Source of the DNA: Chitinophaga pinensis | GTDB taxonomy: Bacteria; Bacteroidota; Bacteroidia; Flavobacteriales; Flavobacteriaceae | Length of the DNA stretch: 32,129 nt | NCBI GenBank assembly: GCA_943324545.2 | Contig: CALPMA020000008.1 | Span: 1 to 32,129 of the forward strand | Direction: 5' to 3' | Position numbers and translations under genes: made by a program | Part shown: one piece after another, positions 6,147-20,837 of the stretch | How positions within the stretch are numbered: the stretch's first letter is position 1 | Layout of the letters: every line of letters starts with the position of its first letter | Notes under the pieces: model-generated | The model's input: only the letters and a program-made list of their open reading frames with translations | What the model was told of the DNA's origin: nothing | Database searches by the model: none

Positions 6147-6719
6147 TTACAAGTTATAATCATAATTAACCATTATTCCCCAACTTTCATTTAATCGAAG
6201 TTCACTGTAGTCGGCGTCAAAATTTATACTGTGAATTTTTGCTCCATTGCTTAAGTGAAAACGGGCTACAGAACCTTCCCAAGATTCTAAATATTGCCTT
6301 ACGATTGATTCGTCAGGTTTGCTTTTAAGATGAGTTTTCATTAACGGAATGGGGCTTAGCGTGAAGAAATTTTTAATACCTAATTTACGGCAATGTCCTA
6401 TTAAATCCTTGATTGCAAGAGTTCCTGCACCTTTCAAACTTGCATGTGGTAATCTAAAAATAGAATAAAAAATAGCATATGTAATATCATATTTACTTTT
6501 ATATCCATCATCATTTAAAACCTCCATCATGTTCCTAGGAAGCTTGTTTCCTATTCTCACACATACCATAAATTGAGGGATACCCTGATGCACATACACA
6601 AAGACCGTTCGGTTACCGGTTATTCGTTTCTCAATTGAAATTGTTGGATGTACAGGGTCATTTATTAAAAAGTTTAGCCATTCATCATTAAATCCAACTT
6701 CACCATATTGCAATATCAT
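6147..6719 (-). CDS. Malonyl-CoA decarboxylase-like protein, catalytic (GNAT-fold) domain only
   Basis: FFTLSPIPLMK resembles the MCD LSPIPGF motif; VARFHLSNGAKIHSINFDADYSELRLNESWGIMVNYDYNL resembles the MCD C-terminus (..FHLRNGA...GLMVNYLY). 190 aa; in-frame stop TAG lies 24-22 nt upstream of the ATG, so no N-terminal extension. Confidence 0.7.
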   Translation of the reverse strand: MILQYGEVGFNDEWLNFLINDPVHPTISIEKRITGNRTVFVYVHQGIPQFMVCVRIGNKLPRNMMEVLNDDGYKSKYDITYAIFYSIFRLPHASLKGAGTLAIKDLIGHCRKLGIKNFFTLSPIPLMKTHLKSKPDESIVRQYLESWEGSVARFHLSNGAKIHSINFDADYSELRLNESWGIMVNYDYNL

Positions 6720-6773
6720 TATTTTATTATTTAAAAAATTAAACTATTTGGGTTATAACTGGTACGAAATAAA

Positions 6774-17798: not shown

Positions 17799-20700
17799 TT
17801 ATAATGATACGTTAATACCAAAAGTTAATAATTTAGGTTCTGGATAACTCGCTGGGCTACTTTCCGGGCTAAATGATTGGTATTTAGTCCAAGTAAAATA
17901 ATTAGTAGCGGTAGCATATACATTGATTTTAGTACGATTGTCTTTACCGTACCATTTCATTTTCGGAAGAGTATATCCTAATGAAAGTGTTCTTAATCGG
18001 AAATAAGAAGCATCTTGAATTCCCATAGATCGAACATAAGGATCAGAGTAATTTGTTCTAGGCATTGGCGCTTCCTGGCCTAATCCAGTTGGAGTCCAAT
18101 AATCTCTTTTTATTCCATTTAATCTACCACTGTTAGTTCCTCCGTCATTATAATCATATAAATAGGTGTTGTTTCTAACAATCCCTTGAACAGTATAAAA
18201 ATCAAGTAATAAATTAAATCCTTTATAATTAAAATTAGTAGAAAATGAACCAATCCAATCCGGGGTTGCATCTATAATATCTCGATCTCCAGCCTCAGTA
18301 ATTATACCGTCGCCATTTACGTCTTTAACTCTAATTGAACCTACTTTTGCTTGTAATTGAGCGTCTGGCAATGGATTTCCTGAAACATCTCTACCTTGAG
18401 CAGATGCACGAACTTCTTCGATGTTATTGAAAATTCCATCAAATCTATATTCATAGTAACAATCCATTGGGTGACCAATAAACCAGTTATTATTTGGCTG
18501 GCTTAATGGGTTTCCATTGGCATCCACCCTTCCATCTATACTGATAATTTTATTTCTATTTTGACTGAAAGTCAAATTAACTGCCATAGTAAAATCTTTA
18601 GACTTTATGGGTGTTGAGCTCAATTGTAATTCAACTCCACGGTTTTGAACTTCTCCTAAATTTGAGAGTTGAGAAGAATAACCAGAGGAAGCTTGTAACG
18701 TTTTATATACTAATAAATCTGTAGTTTTGGTTGTATAAACCTCCAAACTTCCAGAAATAGCATTGTTAAAGAAACCAAAATCAAATCCAGCATTATGAGA
18801 AGCTGAATTTTCCCATTTCAAGAATGGGTTTGGCATTACATTTCCAGGTAATAAACCTACAGAGTAAGTTGGTCCAGGGCCAAATATAAATTCTGATTGA
18901 CTAGTTGTTGAAGTCGTTTGATAAGCACCAATTCCTTGGTTACCAACTTCACCATAACTATATCTGAATTTTAAGTTATTTACAGTTTCCGAATTATCAT
19001 CATTCAGCTTTAATGCTGCAGAATAAGATGGGAACAATCCCCATTTATTTTCAGTACCAAAAACTGAAGAACCATCATATCTTAAAGATGCTGAAAGTAC
19101 CACTTTGTCTAATAAAGTAACTCTAGCTCTTCCTAAATAAGATTGAATTTGACGATTAGTAACTGAACGGCTAGGCACACCAAATACTGAGGCATTGTTA
19201 AAACCATTAGCTCCAAAATAATCAGTTAGGAAATTTTTAGCCGTTTGAGTGAACCCTTCATTTCTAAATTTGTTCGCACTTTGAACTAAAGTAACATCAA
19301 ATCTATTGGTTTCGTTTAAGTCTTTATTATATGTTAAAATGTTTTCAACTAACCATTCTTTATCGGTTCCAAATTTTAGTTGTCCCCAACCGTTAACCGC
19401 TCTTCCTCTTTCGTGTAAACTAGATTCATAACTTTCTCTATTTTCATTTCGAGCATTATAACTAGTGTTCAAACGGTATTTCAACCCTTTTACAATCTCC
19501 CATTCTGCAAATAAATTCAACAATAATCTATTGGTGAATCTTTGATCTGAAGCTTGTTGGCTATTCCATAGCGGATTGTATTTTAAATCGGTAGTAACGT
19601 ATTGAGCTATATTTCCATTTTGATCATACGGATTTGCATATGGTGAAAACGTAAATGCTTTTTGATACATGTTAGAACTTCCAGAGCTTCCGTTGGTAAT
19701 TCCGTCTTCACCATTAAGTGTAGAAAGTGTATATGAAATATTAGTTCCTATTTTTAATGAATTTGAAATAGAGTGATCCACATTTAATCTACCTGTTGCT
19801 CTCTCATAACTAGAATTCATAATCATACCATCTTGTTTGGTATAATTTAAACTTGAGCTGTATTTTGTTTTTTCACTCCCCCCTTTAATACCTAAATTAT
19901 AGGAATTCATTTGAGCCGGTTTAATCAATTCTTTTTCCCAATTAGTAAGTCTTCCCGCTAAATAATTATTATACAACATTGGATCACCAATAGCTGCTTC
20001 GATTACATACGGCTCTACTTGATCAAGTGGTCTAAAATCATTTTGCCCTGCTAATATCATTGAAATCCATTCAGGACCAGTCATTAAGCTGAAATTCTTT
20101 TTTAGCGTTTCATATGTAGTTGCAGTACTAAATTCAATTTGAGTTTTTCCATTCAAACCTCGATTGGTAGTTACCAAAATTACACCGGCAGAAGCTCGAG
20201 CACCATATATTGCTTGAGAAGAAGCATCTTTCAAAACTTCGACACTTTTAATATCATTCGCATTTAAATCGTCAATATCTGAAACTGGAACTCCATCAAC
20301 AATAAATAAAGGAGAATTACTTCCTGAAAGAGAGCGTTTTCCTCTAATTAAAATATCAGAACCACTCCCTGGTCTTGAAGAACCAATAGTTACTTGAACT
20401 CCTGAAACTCTACCACGAAGCATTTCAGCAACACTAGTTGTAGGAATATTCAACATGTCTTTTACTTTAACTGAAGAAATAGCACCAGTAACATCTTTTT
20501 TGCGTTGTGAACCATAACCAACAACCACCACTTCTTCCAATTCTTTTTTGTCTTCTTGAAGAGTAATGTCTATCGTTTTGTTTGACCCTACGGTTTTGGT
20601 TTGGGATAAAAATCCAATGTAAGAAAATTTAAGTGTTGCTTGATCGTTTAAAACAGCAATGGCATAATTCCCTTGAAGGTCAGATGTGGTGGTAGTTTTA

Positions 20701-20837
20701 TTACTGGAAGTAATAGTAACACCCGCTAATGCACTTCCTTTAGAATCACTTACGGTTCCTGAAACAACTATTTTCCCCGTTTGTGAATAACTTAATGAAG
20801 CAAATAGCAACAATAATAGTACTAATTTTTTTTTCAT
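17799..20837 (-). CDS. SusC/RagA-family TonB-dependent receptor
   Basis: GTVSDSKGSALAGVTI carboxypeptidase-like domain; EEVVVVGYGSQRKKDVTGAISSV; plug PLFIVDGVPVSDIDDLNANDIKSVEVLKDASSQAIYGARASAGVILVTT. Confidence 0.97.
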   Translation of the reverse strand: MKKKLVLLLLLFASLSYSQTGKIVVSGTVSDSKGSALAGVTITSSNKTTTTSDLQGNYAIAVLNDQATLKFSYIGFLSQTKTVGSNKTIDITLQEDKKELEEVVVVGYGSQRKKDVTGAISSVKVKDMLNIPTTSVAEMLRGRVSGVQVTIGSSRPGSGSDILIRGKRSLSGSNSPLFIVDGVPVSDIDDLNANDIKSVEVLKDASSQAIYGARASAGVILVTTNRGLNGKTQIEFSTATTYETLKKNFSLMTGPEWISMILAGQNDFRPLDQVEPYVIEAAIGDPMLYNNYLAGRLTNWEKELIKPAQMNSYNLGIKGGSEKTKYSSSLNYTKQDGMIMNSSYERATGRLNVDHSISNSLKIGTNISYTLSTLNGEDGITNGSSGSSNMYQKAFTFSPYANPYDQNGNIAQYVTTDLKYNPLWNSQQASDQRFTNRLLLNLFAEWEIVKGLKYRLNTSYNARNENRESYESSLHERGRAVNGWGQLKFGTDKEWLVENILTYNKDLNETNRFDVTLVQSANKFRNEGFTQTAKNFLTDYFGANGFNNASVFGVPSRSVTNRQIQSYLGRARVTLLDKVVLSASLRYDGSSVFGTENKWGLFPSYSAALKLNDDNSETVNNLKFRYSYGEVGNQGIGAYQTTSTTSQSEFIFGPGPTYSVGLLPGNVMPNPFLKWENSASHNAGFDFGFFNNAISGSLEVYTTKTTDLLVYKTLQASSGYSSQLSNLGEVQNRGVELQLSSTPIKSKDFTMAVNLTFSQNRNKIISIDGRVDANGNPLSQPNNNWFIGHPMDCYYEYRFDGIFNNIEEVRASAQGRDVSGNPLPDAQLQAKVGSIRVKDVNGDGIITEAGDRDIIDATPDWIGSFSTNFNYKGFNLLLDFYTVQGIVRNNTYLYDYNDGGTNSGRLNGIKRDYWTPTGLGQEAPMPRTNYSDPYVRSMGIQDASYFRLRTLSLGYTLPKMKWYGKDNRTKINVYATATNYFTWTKYQSFSPESSPASYPEPKLLTFGINVSL

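Follow-up and report, generated by a model that had tools for sequence, protein, structure and literature searches.

The window analysed here is a stretch of 32,129 nucleotides from a Flavobacterium-like genome of 1.97 Mb that is 85.5% complete. Eight genes follow one another on its minus strand, in the order SusC, SusD, a GH50-like/SASA fusion, a stand-alone SASA protein, GH2, an MFS transporter, a MatB-type ligase and a short malonyl-CoA decarboxylase (MCD). Their features are listed in Table 1. Gene calls and Pfam domains (TonB plug and barrel, SusD, SASA in two proteins, GH2 with malectin, MFS_1, AMP-binding and MCD) agree with a preliminary description of these genes, their strand and their coordinates. 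The fusion it had recognised is also present, with the glycoside hydrolase part now assigned as GH50-like instead of more generally GH-A. Adjacent SusC and SusD homologues are accompanied by CAZymes, which identifies the locus as a PUL. The genes are as tightly spaced as first described, with gaps of 11 bp (SusC-SusD), 74 bp (SusD-GH50/SASA), 32 bp (GH50/SASA-SASA), 67 bp (GH2-MFS), 6 bp (MFS-MatB) and 54 bp (MatB-MCD), none of them above 74 bp, and the SASA and GH2 genes overlap in an ATGA at 12204-12207. The GH2 ATG lies at 12207, downstream of a TTG start listed at 12228.

Table 1. Genes of the locus and its flank, with positions in the window.
Feature	Position	Strand	Basis
Mini-MCD, single-domain malonyl-CoA decarboxylase-like GNAT protein, 190 aa	6147..6719	-	Pfam MCD, residues, AF2 model and fold search
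MatB-type malonyl-CoA ligase, 480 aa	6774..8216	-	Best PDB matches MatB; pocket residues
MFS transporter, candidate malonate importer	8223..9413	-	Pfam MFS_1; position before matB
GH2 with C-terminal malectin domain, beta-glucuronidase-like, exported	9481..12207	-	PDB matches 6d50/5uj6/6nzg; NxK motif
Stand-alone SASA/SGNH carbohydrate esterase, CE20-like, exported	12204..13691	-	Pfam SASA; PDB 9h4u, 9ega, 7kmm
GH50-like hydrolase fused to SASA (CE6-like) esterase domain, exported	13724..15865	-	PDB matches; Pfam SASA 161 bits
SusD-like lipoprotein	15940..17787	-	Pfam SusD_RagB, SusD-like_3
SusC-like TonB-dependent transporter	17799..20837	-	TIGR04056, 779 bits (cut-off 368)
LacI-family regulator, divergent from susC	21145..22143	+	Pfam LacI, Peripla_BP_4
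Large glycine-rich T9SS-secreted protein, possible outer locus part	22395..25976	-	Pfam Gly_rich_2, Por_Secre_tail
T9SS-secreted GH136-like (lacto-N-biosidase-like) beta-helix protein	26242..28197	-	PDB GH136 lacto-N-biosidases
T9SS-secreted protein of unknown function, possible outer locus part	28279..30612	-	Por_Secre_tail

Homologues of the LacI regulator stand beside susC in two other loci (72% identical in L055, 45% in L036). The GH136-like protein matches GH136 lacto-N-biosidases in the PDB with E values of 4e-40 to 1e-18 and keeps the acidic DG..D.D segment, which may hold the catalytic pair. Since L012, L034 and L036 each have a homologue next to the locus (62-70% identical), the system extends well past 20837. 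In L036 its homologue is followed by a large secreted protein comparable to the glycine-rich one, and the GH136-like gene is adjoined by a 44% identical homologue of the secreted protein at 28279..30612. The translations of the hydrolases and esterases start with hydrophobic stretches resembling export signals, and none is evident in the ligase or the MCD. This pattern fits hydrolases and esterases working outside, a membrane transporter, and a cytosolic ligase and decarboxylase. The Flavobacterium promoter consensus TTG-N17-23-TAnnTTTG was not found in the gaps before the MFS, matB and mcd genes, nor before susC.

The last protein of the row had been called MCD-like. Its catalytic residues bear this out, and the assignment can be refined to a GNAT-fold catalytic domain standing alone. 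It scores 89 bits against the Pfam MCD model (cut-off 23). MCDs combine an N-terminal helical oligomerisation domain with a GNAT-fold catalytic domain, in which a His-Ser dyad (human His423 and Ser329) forms the active site, Tyr456 supports the histidine, and strands 5 and 6 are separated by a poorly conserved helical insert (PMC3701320). The window protein, here termed mini-MCD, aligns with the catalytic domain in two blocks and lacks both the N-terminal domain and the strand 5-6 insert. Alignments read by eye equate its S122, H155, Y188 and F84 with human S329, H423, Y456 and F288, and all four are invariant across eight mini-MCD sequences down to 64% identity. A Foldseek search with an AlphaFold2 model (pLDDT 77.6) returned MCD chains as the 17 best PDB matches (E 1e-9), followed by the CurA malonyl decarboxylase; the GphF GNAT-like decarboxylase also appears, and other GNAT acyltransferases are found among the weaker matches. 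Lone GNAT-like PKS domains such as those of CurA and GphF can decarboxylate, so the loss of the N-terminal domain should be no obstacle in principle, and we infer that the shortened enzyme would act on malonyl-CoA. Since the 190-198 aa form recurs in every relative whose gene is intact and the catalytic residues are invariant, a decayed pseudogene is ruled out. In L017 (10001-10568) the gene is split by an apparent frameshift, either an assembly error or a pseudogene. The malonyl-ACP decarboxylases MadA/MadB were dropped as relatives because they decarboxylate with a hot-dog domain and not with a GNAT one.

The assignment of the preceding gene as a MatB-like ligase also stands. Its five best PDB matches are all MatB, that of R. 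palustris first (40% identity) and then that of S. coelicolor. R286, H193, S264, R241 and K471 correspond to R299, H209, S277, R255 and K488 of the R. palustris enzyme. According to PMC6122825, the S. coelicolor counterpart of Arg299 is Arg283, which contacts bound methylmalonyl-CoA, in our reading at its free carboxylate. His209 and Ser277 form part of the pocket lining, and the counterpart of Arg255 is Arg236, which contacts the CoA part. The three pocket residues and the CoA-phosphate arginine are thus all kept in the window ligase, the substrate-carboxylate residues among them, and the motifs that contain Arg299, His209 and Arg255 do not vary among the ligases of eight relatives. Five other residues typical of the MatB group differ (M486L, M247F, E351C, H285M and M240D), and the passages of PMC6122825 consulted report no substrate contact for any of them. 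The NCBIfam malonyl-CoA synthase model NF005702 gives the best score of all models, 482.5 bits, which is below its cut-off of 558. With the pocket residues kept and the group-typical residues changed, the protein is therefore best described as a putative divergent MatB with a conserved pocket. Known malonate transporters include MatC, MadLM and MdcF (PMC12303837), and the position of the MFS protein suggests that it is the malonate importer here.

Two proteins would act on ester groups. The GH50-like part of the fusion matches 5t3b (E 2e-76) and beta-agarases, and its SASA domain is closest to 1zmb and 2apj. The nearest structures to the stand-alone SASA protein are named as carbohydrate esterase or sialate O-acetylesterase. 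Characterised relatives of both are acetylesterases. From gene context, the source of malonate may be malonyl esters cut by these enzymes.

The GH2 protein aligns over its full length with its best PDB matches, the GH2 enzymes 6d50 and 5uj6/6nzg, which we take to be Bacteroides uniformis beta-glucuronidases, and has a malectin-like end and an NxK motif in common with them. In GH2 beta-hexuronidases this motif binds the C6 carboxylate (PMC12243196). It reads VNNKG in the window and relatives and NSKG in L018, and the window enzyme is predicted to be beta-glucuronidase-like. Directly upstream of susC, the four relatives G413, G460, G766 and G1160 carry uxuB-like, uxuA, uxaC and exuT-like genes, of which the uxaC-exuT pair adjoins susC. 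The uxuB-like block is preceded by kdgK- and eda-like genes in the first three, and the G1160 contig starts inside eda. These uronate genes were named by reading their sequences, except UxaC, which was identified with a Pfam model and is present in 10 of 10 carriers as against 54 of 147 genus members. In the window genome a uronate catabolism block lies on another contig (L035). The GH2 likeness, the NxK motif and the uronate genes and UxaC of the carriers together make it very likely that the glycan contains glucuronate.

Linkage between the PUL and the MFS-MatB-mini-MCD trio, on which the preliminary description had staked its interpretation beforehand, recurs in relatives. MatB precedes every mini-MCD found, and wherever the sequence reaches that far, matB always has the MFS gene immediately before it. 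In all genus members examined whose contigs are long enough, the trio directly follows GH2, with mostly small gaps. The eight-gene order is found, whole or up to contig ends, in G413, G460, G766, G1158, G1160, G607 and G1157; protein identities are mostly 49-78% (37% for one GH2), the upstream proteins being about 52-70% identical, and G413 has all eight genes at 37-68%. A Mantel test over seven genomes compared identities of the upstream proteins (SusD, GH50/SASA, SASA and GH2) with those of MFS plus MatB and gave r = 0.92, a value reached in 4 of 5040 permutations. Such parallel divergence of the two halves is expected of a unit inherited together. Recurring gene order and correlated divergence rule out chance adjacency of trio and PUL. 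The trio is thus a real and conserved part of the PUL, as had been proposed; the uronate side, the LacI regulator and the GH136-like protein had been overlooked. A differently organised locus (L015) occurs in the Chitinophagaceae-labelled MAG G1159, where MFS (directly upstream of matB here too), MatB and mini-MCD are preceded by a T9SS protein akin to the GH136-like one of the window, seen as a fragment just before the trio. A separate contig of G1159 (L056) carries LacI-SusC-SusD-GH50-like-GH3-uxuB-uxuA. In this related PUL (1883-12511) the GH50-like protein has no SASA domain, the uxuB gene is uxuB-like, and uxuA is followed by a protein with two esterase-like parts.

Ligase and mini-MCD are both rare. 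Mini-MCD was found in 6 of 396 genomes of the genus, including a MAG labelled Flavobacterium, and in one of 396 genomes of a phylum-wide sample, that of the window. The MCD family as a whole is present in 2 of 398 genomes of the family, and this MatB (E < 1e-110) in 1 of 300. The second family genome with an MCD (L003) belongs to another genus and has a full-length MCD after MadL/MadM-like transporter genes, named by reading; this malonate cluster looks canonical and has no glycan genes in view.

Parts of the locus resemble known systems. The rhizobial and R. palustris Mat system (MatA malonyl-CoA decarboxylase, MatB ligase and MatC transporter) likewise combines malonate import, ligation to malonyl-CoA and MCD-type decarboxylation to acetyl-CoA, whereas the window has an MFS protein in place of MatC, an MCD reduced to its catalytic domain, a ligase with just 40% identity to R. 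palustris MatB, and a SusCD glycan locus as its setting. Bacteroidota PULs have the SusCD pair, glycoside hydrolases, carbohydrate esterases, LacI regulator and T9SS proteins in common with the window, which adds genes for malonate activation and decarboxylation. The open-licence literature searched held nothing relevant on malonate PULs, malonylated glycans or polysaccharides, or malonyl esterases, in keeping with the earlier statement that no described PUL with a dedicated malonate arm was known. CurA GNAT-L and GphF share with mini-MCD a GNAT fold of about 200 residues without the MCD N-terminal domain and decarboxylate malonyl- and methylmalonyl-thioesters, but they are megasynthase domains, and the window protein is closer in sequence to MCD.

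We consider it probable that the locus is a PUL whose glycan contains glucuronic acid and that it includes a salvage arm dedicated to turning malonate into acetyl-CoA. This proposal draws on gene content, conserved linkage, catalytic and substrate-binding residues and hydrolase export signals, all read from sequence. The secreted or periplasmic GH136-like, GH50-like/SASA, GH2 and SASA esterase proteins would, together with SusCD, trim and take up the glycan. The glucuronidase-type GH2 would release glucuronate for the UxaC-UxuB-UxuA-KdgK-Eda route, encoded in the locus in relatives and elsewhere in the window genome. Esterase action would yield free malonate, which the MFS protein would import, the MatB-type ligase would convert to malonyl-CoA and the single-domain MCD would decarboxylate to acetyl-CoA. 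Malonate inhibits succinate dehydrogenase, and the arm may also keep malonate low.

That malonate is the acid concerned is what we infer from the trio, and other readings explain part of the data. Free malonate from plant or algal exudates might co-occur with the glycan and be taken up by the trio, the esterases being ordinary acetylesterases and the genes being grouped because glycan and malonate share one source. The acetylesterase relatives agree with this, as do the differently composed gene set beside the trio in L015 and the family member with MadL/MadM-like genes, a full-length MCD and no glycan genes in view. Yet the trio sits inside the PUL, directly after GH2, in every genus member examined, and none of the 300 to 400 family genomes searched showed a free-malonate locus that contains this MatB or mini-MCD, so we regard free malonate as rather unlikely. 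An ester-linked methylmalonate or substituted malonate, whose acyl-CoA the MCD-like protein would decarboxylate, is less probable again: MatB enzymes also accept methylmalonate (PMC6122825), and GphF and CurA are among the fold matches, but mini-MCD is closest to malonyl-CoA decarboxylases in both sequence and fold. The shortened GNAT fold and the weaker acyltransferase matches would also suit a malonyl or acetyl transferase in a trio that modifies rather than degrades. The invariant His-Ser dyad and supporting Tyr, the MCD chains ranking first in the fold search and the catabolic context make this very improbable.

Counting against the salvage-arm proposal itself are the acetylesterase-like esterases, the differing MatB residues, the ligase score below the NF005702 cut-off, the missing oligomerisation domain and insert of mini-MCD, the L017 frameshift, and the lack of any malonylated polysaccharide in the open-licence literature. 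More tentatively, and with slightly less than even confidence, we suggest a class of PULs for malonyl-ester-decorated, glucuronate-containing glycans that uses a previously undescribed single-domain malonyl-CoA decarboxylase. Such a class would predict that fresh water holds a malonylated polysaccharide not reported to date, and the conserved cluster in lake Flavobacterium suggests that malonate-decorated glycans exist there. PULs are taken to record the structure of glycans, and a conserved malonate arm would point to, and help to find, a decoration not found reported in such a setting. It would also show dedicated catabolism for acyl groups and not sugars only, and an enzyme family of medical relevance would gain a minimal member in the short MCD.

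At the downstream edge, a serine recombinase with Resolvase and Recombinase domains (2343-3980) separates Era from the malonate genes, which makes mobility of that edge possible. It is also present in the near-identical L010, whose genes are 99-100% identical to those of the window and whose public label, Rhizobium sp., looks wrong. Between the recombinase and mini-MCD (4212-5963) are three small genes without Pfam matches, seen among the loci compared only in the nearest relative (L005/L010).
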